Shown piece by piece: positions 47,633 through 54,742 of a stretch of DNA of 64,000 nucleotides. The stretch comes from Algibacter sp. L1A34 (GTDB taxonomy: Bacteria; Bacteroidota; Bacteroidia; Flavobacteriales; Flavobacteriaceae). The stretch spans positions 1,994,501 to 2,058,500 of the forward strand of contig NZ_CP047029.1 in assembly GCF_009796805.1 (NCBI RefSeq). The letters are read 5' to 3'. The stretch's first letter is position 1; each line of letters begins with the position of its first letter. The notes beneath the pieces are model-generated. The model did no database searches. It was not told the origin of the DNA and saw nothing but the letters and a program-made list of their open reading frames with translations. The position numbers and the translations under genes are program-made.

Positions 47633-48397
47633 TTAGCTAAGTATAGATTTTACAAATGCATCTGTTTTGTTTATTCCGCTATTTGTAATATGTTTTATAA
47701 AAGCACTACCAATAATGGCACCTTTCGCATATTCTGTAGCTTGAGTAAAAGTTTCATTATCCGAAATTCCAAACCCAATAACCTGTGGGTTTTTTAAATT
47801 CATATCGGCAATACGTTTAAAATAGCTTGTTTGCTCGTCTCCAAAACCAGAATTACTTCCTGTAACACTAGCGCTACTTACCATGTAGATAAACCCATTC
47901 GAGATAGAATCTATAAAATTAATACGCTCCACCGATGTTTGTGGTGTAATTAGAAACACGTTTATTAATCCGTATTTTTCAAAAATAGTTTGATATTCCT
48001 CATGATAAACATCCACTGGTAAATCTGGAATTATCAAACCATCAACACCAATTTCTTGACATTTTTTACAGAATGCCTCCACACCATATTGTAGCATGGG
48101 GTTGAAATATCCCATAATTATTAACGGAATAGAAACGGTTTTTCTAACATTTTTTAATTGATCAAAAAGCACTTCAGTCGTCATGCCATTCTGTAAAGCC
48201 TTAGTTGAACTTGCTTGAATAGTAGGGCCATCGGCTAGCGGATCACTAAATGGAAGTCCAATTTCTATCATATCTACCCCGTTTTTTTCTAAATCTTCAA
48301 TAATAGAAACGGTATCTGTTAAACTTGGGTAACCAGCTGTAAAATAGATCGATAATAACTTTTTATCTTCTTGTAATTTTTGGTTTATTCTATTCAT
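47633..48397 (-). CDS. trpA: Tryptophan synthase alpha subunit
   Basis: Releases indole from indole-3-glycerol phosphate for the beta subunit. The 254 residues have the catalytic MIEIGLPFSDPLADGP (Glu and Asp), FLITPQTSVERI and GFGISDNETF. The ATG at 48397 is chosen as the family start; a longer frame to 48487 runs into the dispersed repeat and is rejected. It is separated from trpF-trpB by 180 bases that contain repeat copy B. Confidence 0.96.
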   Translation of the reverse strand: MNRINQKLQEDKKLLSIYFTAGYPSLTDTVSIIEDLEKNGVDMIEIGLPFSDPLADGPTIQASSTKALQNGMTTEVLFDQLKNVRKTVSIPLIIMGYFNPMLQYGVEAFCKKCQEIGVDGLIIPDLPVDVYHEEYQTIFEKYGLINVFLITPQTSVERINFIDSISNGFIYMVSSASVTGSNSGFGDEQTSYFKRIADMNLKNPQVIGFGISDNETFTQATEYAKGAIIGSAFIKHITNSGINKTDAFVKSILS

Positions 48398-48477
48398 AAT
48401 AAGAATATTTTTTTCATTCCCTCGAGTAAATCCTATTTTACTACGATTGAATATGTTTTTGCTTTTTTTGTTTTTTT

Positions 48478-48561
48478 GCGTTACCACAAGGGTTGGGCTT
48501 TCACTACTCGCTCCTTCCTAAAAAGTCGGGGAGCTCAAACATGCCGTTCAATCCCTAACGC
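48478..48561 (+). repeat. Dispersed hairpin element, copy B
   Basis: GCGTTACCACAAGGG, TTGGGCTTTCACTACTC, a central hairpin closed by GCTCC and GGAGC, then CCGTTCAATCCCTAACGC. The ends match the other copies while the hairpin differs. It lies within the trp operon between trpF-trpB and trpA, in the antisense orientation to the operon. Confidence 0.9.
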
Positions 48562-48577
48562 GGTATTCCCTGTTATT

Positions 48578-50404
48578 TTATATTTTAAAATATTCAATAT
48601 AATTCTGTAAATCTTTATCACCACGACCAGAAAGACTCACCACAACCACATCGTCTGGTTTAAAGGTTCTTTCTTCAAAAATAGCTAAAGCATGCGAGCT
48701 TTCAATGGCAGGAATAATACCTTCCAGTTTACATAAATCTAAACCAGCATTCATAGCTTGGTCGTCGGTAATCGACATAAATTCTGCACGCCCTGTTTTG
48801 CATAAGTGCGCATGCATAGGTCCAACGCCAGGATAATCCAGCCCAGCCGAAATAGAGTAGGGCTCTGTGATTTGTCCGTCTTTGGTTTGCATCAGCAATG
48901 TTTTACAACCGTGAATAACACCTTCGTGTCCTAAAACCGAAGTGGCAGCACTTTCACCAGAATCTACTCCTAAACCAGCAGCTTCTACCGAAATAATTTT
49001 TACATCAGGTTCGTGTAGATAGTGGTAATATGTTCCTGCGGCATTGCTTCCTCCACCAATACAGGCTACAACATAATCGGGGTTTTCACGACCAATTTGT
49101 TCTTTTAATTGCCATTTTATTTCTTCAGAAATTATCGATTGGAATCTCGTAACCATATCAGGATAAGGATGCGGGCCAATAGCCGAGCCAATAATGTAAT
49201 GTGTGTTTACAGGATTGTTAATCCAATCACGAATGGCTTCGTTTGTAGCATCTTTTAGCGTACGGCTTCCTGAAAGCGCAGGTACTACAGTAGCTCCTAA
49301 CATTTTCATTCTCGCTACGTTTGGAGCTTGGCGTGCAATATCGATTTCGCCCATGTAAACAATACATTCTAAACCCATTAATGCACAAACGGTAGCTGTA
49401 GCAACACCATGTTGCCCTGCACCTGTTTCTGCTATAATTCGAGTTTTTCCAAGGCGTTTAGCCATAAGGATTTGCCCGATAGTATTGTTGATTTTATGAG
49501 CGCCAGTGTGGTTTAAATCTTCACGCTTTAAATATATTTTTGTGTTATATTTTTCTGAAAGGCGTTTTGCAAAATACAGAGGCGATGGACGGCCAACATA
49601 ATCTTTTAAAAGTTGATCGAACTCTTTTTTAAAGTCCGGCTCCGCCATTATTTTTAAATAGTTTTGGCGTAATTCTTCCACATTTGGGTAAAGCATTTCT
49701 GGGATGAAAGCGCCACCAAATTCACCGTAATAGCCTTTTTCGTTTACGTTATAATTCATAACCTGTTCTTTTTTATGGTATAAAATTGTGCTAAGGTTTG
49801 TTTTAAATTCTTGTAATAATGTTATGTTTTTTAATCCGGGTTCTATTTCAAATTTACTGTTTACATCTAATGCGTAGCAGTATTTTGAAGCTTTACTATT
49901 CCGGAATTTTTTAATATCTTCTGTTTGATCAACACCAATGCCTCCACTTAAAAAGAATGGTTTTGTTGATGGGTATTGGTTTAAAACATTCCAATTGAAG
50001 GTATAGCCATTTCCGCCTGGGTGTTTTCCTTTGGTATCAAATAAAAAGTAATCGCAGACATTTTCGTAGGGTTTTAATACTTCGAAATTGAATTCGTTTT
50101 TAATAGAGAATACTTTAATGATCTCGAGTACTTCGCCTTTTAAAGTAGCACAATATTCTGGAGATTCTTCACCGTGTAATTGAACAGTTTGTAAGTCGAA
50201 TGTTTTTATTTTTTCAATAACAACTTGCAAGTCTTCATTAACAAAAACACCTGTCTTTTTTATGGTGCTAGATATTTTTGGAATGGATGTATTGAAATTT
50301 CTAGACGATTTACCGTAGAATATAAAACCTAAATAGTCTGGCTGTAAAGCTGCGACCTCGGTCATATTATCTTGATATTTCATTCCGCAAACTTTCAGTT
50401 TCAT
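48578..50404 (-). CDS. trpFB: Phosphoribosylanthranilate isomerase - tryptophan synthase beta fusion
   Basis: One 608-residue frame covers two enzymes. Residues 1 to about 205 are Trp[33 protein letters not shown] and [11 protein letters not shown]. After a link of about ten residues ([11 protein letters not shown]), TrpB begins at [18 protein letters not shown] and is complete: the PLP lysine is in HTGAHKINN and the phosphate loop is GGGSNAAG. No stop separates them. The internal ATG at 49759 could also start a separate 393-residue TrpB. The first ATG of TrpF is at 50404; a TTG at 50413 is not favoured. Two pathway steps would thus be joined. Confidence 0.92.
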
Positions 50405-50446
50405 GATGCTCAATTTATGTGGTTTTAAAATAAATTTAGTGAAATT

Positions 50447-51232
50447 TTATTTATTCAATTGGTTAATAAATTCAGTAGCACTTGCACCAGGATTATCGGT
50501 TTTCATAAAGTTTTCACCTATTAAAAATCCTTGATATCCAAAAGGTTTAAGCTCTTTAATGGCTTCAATGTTACTAATGCCACTTTCGGAGACTTTTACA
50601 AAATCGTTTGGTATTTGTGTGCTTAATAATTTACTAGTTTCTAAACTTACTTCGAAGGTTTTTAAATTTCTATTATTCACACCAAGCATATCTAAGCTTG
50701 GCATAATAGATTTTTGCAATTCGGCCTCGTTATGCACTTCTAAAAGAACATCGAGGTTTAAGCTTTTTGCAAATTCCGAATATTGTTTAATTTCTTCTCG
50801 GGTTAAAACAGCAGCGATAAGTAAAATTACATCGGCGCCATAAGCTTTGGCTTCCAATATTTGATAAGTGTCTATGATGAACTCTTTACGTAGAAGCGGT
50901 AAATTACAACTTGCACGAGCAGTTAATAAATCGTCTAAACTTCCGCCAAAATATTTTCCATCGGTTAAAACGGACATGCCACAAACACCTGCATTTTCGT
51001 AACCCGAAGCCACATCTTGAACATTGAGAGTGTTGTTAATTACAGATTTTGAAGGTGAACGTCTTTTGTGTTCAGCGATAATACCAGTTTTGCTATTTCG
51101 TAAGTTATTGGCTAAAGAAACCGTTGCGCGTTCAAATAAAACAGATTGCTCCAATTGCGAAACGGGAATAAGTTGCTTTCTTAAGGCGACTTCATTTCTT
51201 TTATCGATTACTATTTTGTCTAAAATATTCAT
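50447..51232 (-). CDS. trpC: Indole-3-glycerol phosphate synthase
   Basis: Closes the indole ring. The 261-residue barrel has IIAEHKRRSPSKSVIN with the substrate lysine, LPLLRKEFIIDTYQI with the catalytic Lys-Glu, and LLEVHNEAEL, LGVNNRNL and SESGI. It stands separately from trpF, unlike the TrpC-TrpF fusion of enteric bacteria; here TrpF is joined to TrpB instead. Spacing to trpD is 15 bases. Confidence 0.97.
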   Translation of the reverse strand: MNILDKIVIDKRNEVALRKQLIPVSQLEQSVLFERATVSLANNLRNSKTGIIAEHKRRSPSKSVINNTLNVQDVASGYENAGVCGMSVLTDGKYFGGSLDDLLTARASCNLPLLRKEFIIDTYQILEAKAYGADVILLIAAVLTREEIKQYSEFAKSLNLDVLLEVHNEAELQKSIMPSLDMLGVNNRNLKTFEVSLETSKLLSTQIPNDFVKVSESGISNIEAIKELKPFGYQGFLIGENFMKTDNPGASATEFINQLNK

Positions 51233-51247
51233 TTTCAGTATACTGTT

Positions 51248-52240
51248 TTACTTGCTTAATGCTACTAATTTATCTAAACTCATTTTTGCTTTTCCTGAAA
51301 ACAGAGATTCTTTTGCTATTTGAAAACCTTCTTGATGTGAAATTTGTTTTGAAGTGGCAATGGCTAATCCTGCATTGGCACAAACAACATTGTTTTGAGC
51401 TTCTGTTCCTTTTCCACTAATAATTTCGACAAATATATTTGCTGCATCTTTTATGGTATCTCCACCAAAAATAGCGTTTTGTTTAATTTTTGAAACGCCT
51501 AAATCTTCAGGTGAAAAAAGTTTTTCGGTATGATTAGAAATAATTTTTGCTTTTCCTGTTAATGAAATTTCATCGTAGCCATCTAAAGCATAAACGATAT
51601 TATAATTGTGTTCTGTATTTTGAAATAAGAAACTATAAAGCCTTAAAACTTCTAAATTAAAAACCCCTAGAACATGGTTTTTTGGAAAGGACGGATTAAC
51701 CAAAGGCCCTAACATATTGAAAAAAGTTTTAACACCTAGTTCTTTTCGAATAGGAGCAACGTTTTTCATTGCTGGGTGAAACAATGGTGCGTGTAAAATA
51801 CATATTCCTGCTTGGTCTAAAGCGCGTTTTAAAAAATCTTCATTATTAGAAAATTTCACACCTAAATGTTCCATAACATTCGATGAGCCAGAAGTTGATG
51901 ATACACCGTAATTTCCATGTTTAGAAACATGAACACCAGCACCTGCGGTTATAAAAGCCGATAGGGTAGAAATGTTGAAGGTGTTTTTACCGTCTCCGCC
52001 AGTTCCTACAATATCGATAGCATTAAAATCGGTAAGATTTATAGGTAAGCACAGTTCTAGAAGCGCGTCTCTAAAGCCTTTTAGCTCTTCTATAGTAATA
52101 CTGCGCATCATGAAAACCGATAAAAAACAGGTTATTTGGCTAGGATTATACATATCGTTTGATATGTTTACCAAGACTTGTTTTGCCTCTTCGGTTGAAA
52201 GTGTTTCGTGGTTTATTAGTCTGTTTAATAAATGTTTCAT
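51248..52240 (-). CDS. trpD: Anthranilate phosphoribosyltransferase
   Basis: Transfers phosphoribose from PRPP to anthranilate. The 330 residues include the PRPP-binding DIVGTGGDGKNTFNIST, the HGNYGVSSTSGSSNVMEHLG segment and the metal-binding LDGYDEIS. It is unfused to trpG. It lies in the order E-G-D-C-FB-A, about 100 bases after trpG. Confidence 0.97.
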   Translation of the reverse strand: MKHLLNRLINHETLSTEEAKQVLVNISNDMYNPSQITCFLSVFMMRSITIEELKGFRDALLELCLPINLTDFNAIDIVGTGGDGKNTFNISTLSAFITAGAGVHVSKHGNYGVSSTSGSSNVMEHLGVKFSNNEDFLKRALDQAGICILHAPLFHPAMKNVAPIRKELGVKTFFNMLGPLVNPSFPKNHVLGVFNLEVLRLYSFLFQNTEHNYNIVYALDGYDEISLTGKAKIISNHTEKLFSPEDLGVSKIKQNAIFGGDTIKDAANIFVEIISGKGTEAQNNVVCANAGLAIATSKQISHQEGFQIAKESLFSGKAKMSLDKLVALSK

Positions 52241-52341
52241 TTCTTTTTTATTTCCGTAAAGCGAGAATTGTTGTTGGTTATTTTGTTTTCATTGGAGTAA
52301 GCACTGTTTTACTGAGATTGAAAACTGAATACTGTTTTTTT

Positions 52342-52905
52342 TTAATTCTCAATCCAATTTTTTAAAATTGCTTTTCCGTTTGGAGTTAATACCGATTCTG
52401 GGTGATATTGTACGCCACGAACATCGTATGTTTTATGGCGAAGAGACATGATTTGTCCGTTAATATCTACCGATGTTGCTTCTAAACTTTCTGGTAAATT
52501 CGGGTTTACTACCCATGAGTGATAGCGCCCGACTTCTATGTTTTTATCTAAGCCTTTAAAAAGGATTTCATCGTCTACGGTTATGGTAACGTTTGTTGCT
52601 ACACCATGATAAACTTCATCTAGGTTTATTAATGAGCCTCCGAAAACTTCACCTATGGCTTGTTGGCCTAAGCATACGCCAAGAATACTTTTTGTTGGAG
52701 CATATCTTTCTATAATGGCTTTTAGTAATCCTGCTTCGTCTGGAATTCCTGGGCCTGGAGATAATACTATTTTATGGTATGGTTCAACATCGTCAAGGGT
52801 AAGTTTGTCGTTTCGGACTACGGTAACATCGCAATTTAAATCTTCTAGGTAATGAACTAGATTGTATGTAAAACTGTCGTAATTGTCTATGACTAGTACT
52901 TTCAT
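52342..52905 (-). CDS. trpG: Anthranilate synthase component II (glutamine amidotransferase)
   Basis: Supplies ammonia from glutamine to TrpE. The 187-residue class I amidotransferase has the nucleophile cysteine in LGVCLGQQAIGEVFGG and the His-Glu pair in VQYHPES. DNYDSFTYNLVHYL is the N-terminal signature. In many bacteria the same protein serves p-aminobenzoate synthesis; which applies here is not visible. The 200 bases between trpE and trpG contain repeat copy C. Confidence 0.96.
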   Translation of the reverse strand: MKVLVIDNYDSFTYNLVHYLEDLNCDVTVVRNDKLTLDDVEPYHKIVLSPGPGIPDEAGLLKAIIERYAPTKSILGVCLGQQAIGEVFGGSLINLDEVYHGVATNVTITVDDEILFKGLDKNIEVGRYHSWVVNPNLPESLEATSVDINGQIMSLRHKTYDVRGVQYHPESVLTPNGKAILKNWIEN

Positions 52906-52997
52906 AAGTTTATTTTTTTTCAGATGAATCTGAATTTTATTTATTTTGTTATTCGAGTAGGTGTTGCTTTACTGCTACTTTTTCCGTGGATTGCTCC

Positions 52998-53099
52998 GCG
53001 TTAGGGATTGAGGCTTTGTTGAAGCTCTTTTTGTGTTGTTGCACCTATGCAACACAAAAAAGCGACTGCCGAAAGCCCGACCCTTTTCGGGTAACGCCC
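52998..53099 (-). repeat. Dispersed hairpin element, copy C
   Basis: Read on the minus strand: GGGCGTTACCCGAAAAGGG, TCGGGCTTTCGGCAGTCG, a long central hairpin (TTTTGTGTTG... pairing with CAACACAAAA), then CTCAATCCCTAACGC. It lies between trpE and trpG in the sense orientation of the operon, so it would be part of the trp mRNA. Confidence 0.9.
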
Positions 53100-53106
53100 A
53101 ATTTAT

Positions 53107-54513
53107 TTATATGTCTTCGGCTACTTTTATGGCTTTTGTTAATGCACCGAGTTTATGAAATACTTCTTGCAATTCGTTTTCGGCATTAGATTTTGATACC
53201 ATTCCGGCGCCTGCTTGCCAGTTTAATTTGTAATCTTTACTTAAAAAGGTACGGATCATGATGGCGTGATTAAAATTGCCTTCGAAATCCATGAACCCGA
53301 TTGCGCCACCGTAATAGCCGCGACTTGTTTTTTCGTATTGTTCAATAAGTTGCATAGCACGGTGTTTTGGTGCGCCACTTAATGTTCCTGCAGGAAAAGT
53401 ATCTGCCACAACTTGCATCGTTGAGGTGCTTTTGTGTTTATGGCCTGTTACTTTACTTACTAGGTGAATTACGTGCGAGAAAAACTGCACTTCACGATAG
53501 GTTTCTACTTTTACTTGGCTGCCGTGACGACTTAAATCGTTTCGGGCTAGGTCGACAAGCATAACGTGTTCTGCGTTTTCTTTATCGTCATTTTTTAATT
53601 GTTCGGCAAGAATTTCGTCTTGTTCCTCATCGCCTGTTCGTTTAAATGTTCCTGCAATAGGGTGAATTTCGGCCAGACCATTTGTTACAACAAGTTGGGC
53701 TTCGGGTGAACTACCAAATATTTTAAAATCTCCATAATCGAAATAAAATAGATATGGTGATGGATTTATGCTACGTAAGGCGCGATAAATATTAAAATCG
53801 TCTCCTGTGAATTCTTGTGAAAAACGACGAGAAAGTACGAGTTGAAAAACATCGCCTCGAGCACAATGTTTTTGAGCTAAATCTACTTGAGCTTTAAATT
53901 CGTCATCGGTTAAATTAGATTTTATTTCGCCTTTAGATTTGAAATTATAAGATGCGAAATTTTGCACGTTTATTAGCTGGTCGATGTCGTGTATGTTGTT
54001 TTCGGCATCGTTAAAGCAGTGTGCAAAAATATAAGCTTCGTTTTTATAGTGGTTTATGGCGATAATATTTTTATAAACAGCATAGTAAATATCTGGTATT
54101 ACTACAGAATCGTCTTTTTTGCTAATTTGAACATCCTCGAAATACCGAACAGCATCGTAAGCAGTGTAACCAAATATACCGTTGTTAATGAATTTGAAAT
54201 CTTCGTCGGATTGGGGATCGAAACGTTTTGTGAAATCATGGATTTCGTTCGCTACGTTTATATCTTTTGTTATGTTTAAAGACGTGGTGCTCCCATCGGG
54301 AAAGGTTTGCGAAATAACTTCGTTTTCTACCTTTATAGATGCGATTGGGTTGAAACAGATATACGAGAAGTTTTTGTGATTACGGTGGTAATCACCACTT
54401 TCTAGCAAAATACTGTTTGGGTATTTATCGCGTATTTTATAGTAAACAGATACAGGTGTTATAGTATCTGTTAATATTTTTTTGTGGTGGGTGTATAGAC
54501 TAAATTTTTCCAT
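53107..54513 (-). CDS. trpE: Anthranilate synthase component I
   Basis: First committed enzyme of tryptophan synthesis, turning chorismate into anthranilate with TrpG. The 468 residues have the chorismate-binding C-terminal domain: FQLVLSRRFSQ, PSPYLFYFDYG, EIHPIAGTFKRTGDEEQD, LVDLARNDLSRHGS, DTFPAGTLSGAPKHRAM and ESGxD-like N-terminal feedback region LLESGDYHRN (about 35-44), the site where tryptophan inhibits other TrpE proteins. It is the first structural gene after the leader and terminator at 54561-54690. Confidence 0.95.
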   Translation of the reverse strand: MEKFSLYTHHKKILTDTITPVSVYYKIRDKYPNSILLESGDYHRNHKNFSYICFNPIASIKVENEVISQTFPDGSTTSLNITKDINVANEIHDFTKRFDPQSDEDFKFINNGIFGYTAYDAVRYFEDVQISKKDDSVVIPDIYYAVYKNIIAINHYKNEAYIFAHCFNDAENNIHDIDQLINVQNFASYNFKSKGEIKSNLTDDEFKAQVDLAQKHCARGDVFQLVLSRRFSQEFTGDDFNIYRALRSINPSPYLFYFDYGDFKIFGSSPEAQLVVTNGLAEIHPIAGTFKRTGDEEQDEILAEQLKNDDKENAEHVMLVDLARNDLSRHGSQVKVETYREVQFFSHVIHLVSKVTGHKHKSTSTMQVVADTFPAGTLSGAPKHRAMQLIEQYEKTSRGYYGGAIGFMDFEGNFNHAIMIRTFLSKDYKLNWQAGAGMVSKSNAENELQEVFHKLGALTKAIKVAEDI

Positions 54514-54560: not shown

Positions 54561-54597
54561 AATAAAAAAAAGGCTTGTCGTGAATGACAAGCCTTTT
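54561..54597 (-). terminator. trp attenuator terminator
   Basis: A perfect 12-bp stem (54568-54579 with 54586-54597), core GGCTTGTC, six-base loop, followed on the minus strand by eight T residues. It lies between the leader peptide stop and trpE, 48 bases before the trpE ATG, where a terminator would block the operon unless its formation is prevented. Confidence 0.88.
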
Positions 54598-54642
54598 GGA
54601 TATTTTAAGTTTTAAATATACTTGGGTTTTACTTCACGAATT

Positions 54643-54690
54643 TTAGTTTCGAAAGCTCCACCACCATGTATTATTTAAAAATATGTTCAT
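54643..54690 (-). CDS. trpL: trp leader peptide with three consecutive Trp codons
   Basis: A 15-codon frame from the ATG at 54690 to the TAA at 54645-54643 reads MNIFLNNTWWWSFRN. The three TGG codons are positions 9-11. It begins about 14 bases after the predicted transcription start and lies upstream of a strong terminator and trpE. Three adjacent codons for the rarest amino acid in such a short frame are very unlikely by chance, and the layout is that of ribosome-mediated attenuation: stalling at the Trp codons when charged tRNA-Trp is scarce would favour read-through into trpE. Translation of the peptide is inferred. Confidence 0.85.
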   Translation of the reverse strand: MNIFLNNTWWWSFRN

Positions 54691-54710
54691 TGTTATTGTT
54701 TTAACTGGTT

Positions 54711-54742
54711 CAAATATAAAGATTGAAAAAGTATTATACAAA
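54711..54742 (-). promoter_or_regulatory. Candidate trp operon promoter
   Basis: On the minus strand, TTTG at 54742-54739 and TATATTTG at 54718-54711 are separated by 20 bases, a full match to the Bacteroidota -33/-7 consensus. Transcription would start near 54704, shortly before the leader peptide. Confidence 0.7.

Follow-up and report, generated by a model that had tools for sequence, protein, structure and literature searches.

The textbook example of transcription attenuation by a translating ribosome is the trpL leader of Escherichia coli, with its scheme of RNA segments that pair in mutually exclusive ways. The closest catalogued relative of the leader described here is the RNA motif Bacteroid-trp (RF01692 in Rfam), which appears once in the main text of Weinberg et al. 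(2010, PMC2864571), as a table row, and which is named ahead of the trp operon of F. psychrophilum, together with E. coli attenuation, in excerpts of PMC6414381; there it is a remark only, and those excerpts name neither a leader experiment nor an antiterminator. We have analysed a leader of this kind ahead of trpE in a 64,000-nt stretch of the genome of Algibacter sp. L1A34 (the window), where all parts of the attenuator and the trp genes lie on the minus strand. With a probability of about 80%, we consider it an attenuator through which a translating ribosome controls transcription of the trp operon, with one RNA strand (segment 2) contested by a strand located after the Trp codons (segment 1) and by the apex of the terminator hairpin.

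RF01692 matches the leader at 54710-54586 along the whole model (positions 1-131 of 131) with 58.1 bits, above the gathering cut-off of 49 (E 1.2e-6 in a search of 421 bases). The element is not new as such, since it is already catalogued under this accession. However, the match stops at 54586 on the 5' arm of the terminator, with loop and 3' arm outside the model, so that the model cannot contain the antiterminator proposed here, whose target lies further on. Searched with this model, 60 relatives gave 31 matches (27 above the cut-off), and 12 of 197 genomes of the class were matched, fewer than those with Trp leaders found by a search anchored on TrpE.

The first-pass annotation, made from the letters of the window alone, had described a promoter, a Trp-rich frame, a terminator and trpE in the layout of classical enteric attenuation. 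The parts are indeed there (coordinates in Table 1): the promoter TTTG-20-TATATTTG (54742-54711), in agreement with the -33/-7 consensus, the 15-codon frame MNIFLNNTWWWSFRN with three adjacent TGG codons and, between this frame and trpE, an intrinsic terminator with a perfect 12-bp stem and eight T residues. The leader ATG (54690) stands 20 nt past the -7 element, and the earlier figure of about 14 bases to the start of the frame would hold if transcription begins some 6 nt past that element. The leader RNA folds with a z of -4.5 (none of 200 shuffles was equally good), and its minimum-energy fold consists of a protector hairpin and the terminator. As far as the layout itself goes, attenuation by a ribosome is supported by the conserved Trp run and terminator together with mutually exclusive pairings; what departs from the enteric arrangement is the proposed antiterminator, the best-supported strand for which is directed to the loop and the first bases of the 3' arm. 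Next to the leader stop, UCGUGAA (segment 2, 54639-54633) is complementary to UUCACGA (54584-54578), suggesting that the antiterminator would grab the tip of the terminator hairpin and not its leading arm as in E. coli.

We infer a switch in which segment 2 would pair either with segment 1, after the Trp codons, or with the apex (the loop and the top of the 3' arm). When Trp is plentiful, the ribosome would reach the stop codon, which in the window lies only a few bases before segment 2 so that a finishing ribosome covers it, and the terminator would form. Without translation, segment 2 would be hidden in the protector hairpin, composed of an outer stem running into the Trp codons and of the pairing between segments 1 and 2, and the terminator would form as well. 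When charged tRNA-Trp is scarce, a ribosome stalled on the Trp codons would open the protector hairpin and stop short of segment 2; the freed strand would then capture the apex as it emerges from the polymerase, hindering nucleation of the hairpin, lowering termination and allowing read-through into trpE.

In order to compare relatives independently of any RNA model, we have selected them by their TrpE protein (G and L numbers label genomes and regions). A match was found in 85 of 119 relatives (E <= 1e-80) and in 63 of 197 genomes of the class (E <= 1e-60); among named relatives the nearest TrpE belongs to Algibacter species, with 93% identity to A. pacificus, which places the window in the Flavobacteriaceae. 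G093 (contig beginning inside trpE) and G170 and G234 (upstream region cut short) were excluded at the outset, and the usable trpE-upstream regions were 144 (84 from relatives and 60 from the class). The tandem Trp codons, whose conservation the first-pass annotation had left to such a comparison, are present as at least two adjacent TGG in a short frame in 120 of these regions, 117 of them with a terminator found by script (the others are G079, G098 and G151). Six further regions have interrupted Trp codons (WRW, WLW, WCW), and in four more (G216, G186, G272 and G246) RF01692 matches farther upstream, in G216 and G186 with a trpB-like frame, identified by eye, between the match and trpE. The Trp leader was not found in 14 of the 144 regions. 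Along the same lines, leader and terminator were found by script in 71 of 80 named close relatives and are visible by eye in eight of the nine others; in the ninth, L235, adjacent TGG codons are absent within 800 nt. The 123 leader-terminator units used below comprise 119 anchored on TrpE and four reached through RF01692; three units judged spurious (G083_0, G242_0 and G105_1) were dropped, and G079, G098 and G151 stand outside the set (in G079 the canonical pairing could not be fitted by eye). The promoter is also recurrent: 103 of the 123 units have TAnnTTTG in the 60 nt that precede the leader ATG, vs 7 of 114 control windows farther upstream.

The complementarity between segment 2 and the apex was examined by scoring the best ungapped helix between the linker and the apex, defined as 5 nt of the 5' arm, the loop and 5 nt of the 3' arm. 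These helices replaced a gapped duplex prediction over the whole hairpin (115 units, 49 with p < 0.05 and 12 with p < 0.01) because the latter strings short helices together and is poorly informative on place. Taking one unit per family (the group label given by the search tool) in each of 15 draws of 26 families, the linkers fitted their own apex better than permuted ones, with none of 20,000 permutations as good in any draw (z 5.1-6.7) and mean scores of 16.6 for the own apex vs 13.3 for permuted ones. With the three window-type families left out, the preference persisted (in 5 draws, 0-1 of 20,000 permutations were as good; z 4.4-5.4), as it did among the 11 members of the window's family that have no CACGA in the apex (3 of 20,000). 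The terminator 3' arm as a whole gave no steady preference for its own hairpin (z -0.9 to 2.2).

The paired sequences change together among lineages. The window has TCGTGAA/TTCACGA as segment 2 and apex, and the corresponding pairs are TTGTCGCAAT/ATTGCGACAA in G070, GGATTCAG/CTGAATCC in G069, GAGAAGC/GCTTCTC in G050 and G096, GAACAGC/GCTGTTC in G253 and GTCGTGAG/CTTACGAC in G272; the second leaders of the congeners G037 and G052 carry TGCGGGA/TTCCGCA vs TGTGGG/CCCACA. A redundancy filter reduced the 69 units of the window's family to 39; when these are simply aligned, the seven proposed pairs form in 81.4% of cells, a share reached by 1 of 500 shuffles, vs 20.7-47.1% for slid versions of the register. 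The covariation score was matched by 2 of 500 shuffles, and two-sided changes affect five of the seven pairs, a count matched by 15 of 500.

Segment 2 starts 14-22 nt past the last TGG in all 60 units with a CACGA apex and in 45 of the 63 without (105 of 123 overall), and in shuffled linkers of the latter the same position was reached by a mean of 11.5 and a maximum of 24 of 63 units over 200 rounds. With a ribosome footprint that ends about 13 nt beyond the first base of the A site, a start at 14-22 nt would lie immediately downstream of a ribosome whose A site holds a Trp codon. The stems of the protector hairpin are likewise supported. A set of 109 units from 23 families gave, in each of 15 draws, a better match between segment 1 and the segment 2 of the same unit than any of 5,000 permutations (z 5.0-7.3), and the outer stem into the Trp codons was equalled by 0-9 of 5,000 (z 3.2-6.0). 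The first-pass annotation had drawn a weak stem between CTTTCG and CGTGAAG as a possible antiterminator; this stem does belong to the minimum-energy fold, as part of the protector hairpin and not as an antiterminator.

A way to follow the competition between these pairings is to fold the growing transcript while the polymerase conceals its final 10 nt and a 30-nt mask stands for the ribosome, a constrained equilibrium that approximates co-transcriptional kinetics. In the window leader, the probability of apex pairing is 0.00 without a ribosome, 0.72-0.85 with a ribosome on any of the Trp codons and 0.00 with one at the stop, and these values hold until the T-run ends, 4 nt beyond the stem. Varying the hidden length (8, 10, 12 or 14 nt) shifts the range of positions over which the antiterminator persists in the stalled state, and with 8 nt it is gone by +4. 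Over the 123 units, mean apex pairing was 0.08 without a ribosome, 0.46 stalled and 0.02 at the stop. A switch of at least 0.3 was seen in 77 units vs 41 of 615 shuffled controls, and 62 of those 77 also showed the matching fall of the terminator vs 29 of 615 shuffled. The pairing itself is supported by complementarity and covariation, and the folding model predicts a switch in which stalling would free it and exclude the terminator.

Several observations weigh against this interpretation. Against shuffled linkers, the apex helix reaches p <= 0.05 in only 66 of the 123 single units and p <= 0.01 in 16, with p > 0.3 in 19, and only 1-5 of the 26 units of a draw have their own apex as the single top match; the evidence from single units is weak, and that from the comparison between families is not. 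The 5' arm also gives a signal for its own hairpin, although a weaker one (z 2.4-3.7, up to 255 of 20,000 permutations). In the alignment, the register slid by -2 has six two-sided pairs and 13 cells vs five and 10 for the proposed one, pairing in only 41.4% of cells, and several divergent rows are by eye out of register, which weighs against the pairing. In the folding model 46 of 123 units show no switch, and of five units followed closely, two (G070 and G096) form the antiterminator even when no ribosome is present. Finally, at +8 the finished terminator wins at equilibrium in every state of the window leader, so the switch must be kinetic.

The alternative closest to the known systems is the classical enteric arrangement, whose antiterminator is directed at the terminator 5' arm, complementarity to the loop being incidental. 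The CCCAAG/CTTG pairing drawn in the first-pass annotation would be of this type. It is present in the window, and in a wobble version only (CCCGAG) in the three congeners G001, G002 and G004, but it amounts to 4 bp, is broken in the congener G003 (CCCTAG) and absent, e.g., in G088 (CCTAG), members of the window's own family in which segment 2 and apex covary instead; being unconserved, it was set aside as antiterminator. The fit of the 5' arm mentioned above argues for this arrangement across families. When the best helix is sought over the whole hairpin, its centre falls on the 5' arm in 33 of 123 units (on the loop in 76 and on the 3' arm in 14), so that the phylum does contain the classical form. 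Yet this helix touches the loop in 112 of the 123 units, and we regard the classical arrangement as an improbable description of the window leader. By these helix positions the phylum covers a range, with the window at the loop and 3' side of it.

About equally improbable is a pseudoknot between segment 2 and the loop of the finished terminator, which would tune or strengthen termination rather than prevent it. Five of the seven target bases of the window belong to the loop, and a shorter pairing could coexist with the stem; but segment 2 would be free only with a ribosome stalled upstream, a biosynthetic operon that terminates more when Trp runs short would be regulated the wrong way round, and the targets often include stem bases of either arm (five of the 5' arm in G253, five of the 3' arm in G272). 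It is very improbable that the leader answers to a Trp-binding protein, a T-box or some other controller in place of a stalled ribosome, or that a promoter downstream of the terminator makes the leader irrelevant: TACATTTT at 54551-54544 (minus strand), between terminator and trpE, is one base off the -7 consensus and could be a weak internal promoter, but the regions counted above preserve the Trp run as codons within a short frame, no T-box was found among the Rfam matches up to E = 1, and of the GAG/UAG repeats that characterize TRAP leaders 54710-54586 contains, by inspection, one GAG and no UAG.

Returning to the capture of the apex by segment 2, we lean towards extending it to the Trp attenuators of the Bacteroidota in general, as a strand that would pair with the loop and with whichever adjacent stem bases suit. 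Such pairing would block nucleation at a time when the 3' arm is still covered by the polymerase, and would leave most of the 5' arm free. From lineage to lineage the register would move along the hairpin, from 5' arm to loop to 3' arm, with the distance to the Trp codons kept constant. One group, family f5 (G107, G099, G040, G115 and G053), has longer leader peptides with a common WWW(L/F)SNSSSG core; its apex complementarity is at chance level (p 0.395-0.854), and its antiterminator may be of another kind.

Table 1. Elements of the trp leader and operon in the window of Algibacter sp. L1A34.
Feature	Position	Strand	Basis
-33 element TTTG	54739..54742	-	sequence; known consensus
-7 element TATATTTG	54711..54718	-	sequence; 20-nt spacer from TTTG
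Leader peptide frame MNIFLNNTWWWSFRN, 15 codons + stop	54643..54690	-	sequence; comparable Trp-rich frames in relatives
Outer stem of protector hairpin, 5' side, running into Trp codons	54660..54680	-	minimum-energy fold; permutation z 3.2-6.0
TGG TGG TGG, three adjacent Trp codons	54658..54666	-	sequence
Segment 1, 5' arm of inner protector hairpin (GCUUUCGAA)	54648..54656	-	minimum-energy fold; segment 1:segment 2 z 5.0-7.3
Segment 2, proposed antiterminator strand UCGUGAA; with neighbours also 3' arm of inner protector hairpin	54633..54639	-	fold, apex tests, covariation
Outer stem of protector hairpin, 3' side	54610..54627	-	minimum-energy fold; outer-stem permutation test
Intrinsic terminator hairpin, AAAAGGCTTGTC / ATTCAC / GACAAGCCTTTT, 12 perfect bp, 6-nt loop AUUCAC	54568..54597	-	sequence and fold
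Proposed segment 2 target UUCACGA: five loop bases + first two of terminator 3' arm	54578..54584	-	apex tests, covariation
T-run of eight, four within stem	54564..54571	-	sequence
trpE, first gene controlled	53107..54513	-	frame; starts 54 nt past terminator stem
Remaining operon: trpG, trpD, trpC, trpF-trpB in one frame, trpA	47633..52905	-	frames and NCBIfam matches

The best NCBIfam match of trpE is TIGR00564, with 426.9 bits (below the cut-off of 517.7). Within the operon, trpF and trpB form a single frame of 611 codons (48578-50413, minus strand) that matches the bifunctional family NF010376 with 782.9 bits (cut-off 819). Some of the leaders in relatives show peculiarities of their own. 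In 31 of the 103 units with TAnnTTTG (e.g., G036, G030 and G022) the leader ATG comes only 4-8 nt after the element, so that some leader peptides may be translated from almost leaderless RNA. G037 and G052 (L097 and L098, one genus of the same order) have two tandem Trp-leader frames before trpE, each with its own terminator. Three genomes of about 600 kb (G106, G097 and G114; L104, L106 and L107), among the 14 regions where no leader was found, have no Trp leader frame and keep ahead of trpE an imperfect terminator-like relic, GGCTTGTC...GAC.GGCC-TTTT.

In the genome of the window, leaders for other amino acids were looked at ahead of hisG, the prephenate dehydratase gene and ilvD only. A short frame with four His codons (MTFIQIHHHFHICFQAN) precedes hisG (L270), is followed by a terminator-like hairpin and is likely a His leader. 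Upstream of the prephenate dehydratase gene (L271) there is a short Phe/Tyr-rich frame (MSMTVYYTYFNNWFYFFFSEKNEALYV), then a terminator-like hairpin, and upstream of ilvD (L272) an Ile-rich short frame (MKNKSLINASINVIMIIS) with a T-rich hairpin region next to it, about 300 nt before ilvD. A second RF01692 match in the same genome (46.1 bits, below the cut-off) was taken as chance because it overlaps the start of a long frame (by eye resembling an FAD-dependent oxidoreductase) and shows no Trp leader. The other Rfam matches, i.e., Atu_C9, tsr26, GibS, mir-70 and AbsR25 near the terminator, SNORD123 and isrF elsewhere and Flavo-1 at 52988-53086, were all below their gathering scores and were discarded.

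The first-pass annotation knew of no detailed experimental study of such a leader in Flavobacteriia, and we have found none of the Bacteroid-trp leader in one open-licence library of papers, supplements, including that of PMC2864571, lying outside the search. Excerpts of PMC7366714 mention leader-peptide-like short frames in B. thetaiotaomicron and contain no word starting with "trp"; in PMC6847099, which deals with F. johnsoniae, the main text uses neither "leader peptide" nor "tryptophan" nor any form of "attenuat-", and excerpts of PMC4833913 and PMC8305728 hold nothing bearing on this leader. With the pairing proposed here, a catalogued leader RNA with an incomplete switch becomes a model with named, exchangeable bases. 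The mechanism would imply tight coupling of ribosome and polymerase in a phylum whose mRNAs, according to the abstract of PMC6847099, are without Shine-Dalgarno sequences. It also raises a question about RNA polymerase, namely whether capture of the tip of a terminator hairpin suffices to prevent termination.

The comparison with E. coli trpL shows both how much is shared and where the window departs. In common are the short peptide with adjacent Trp codons, the protector pairing, the terminator and an antiterminator strand near the stop, and in trpL this strand starts 14 nt after the Trp codons. The difference is in the target. By the same measure, applied to this one leader, the trpL strand CGGGC pairs with the 5' arm GCCCG and the loop is untouched, whereas segment 2 of the window is directed to the loop and the 3' arm. 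The window leader would work like classical attenuation, but without the strict E. coli geometry.
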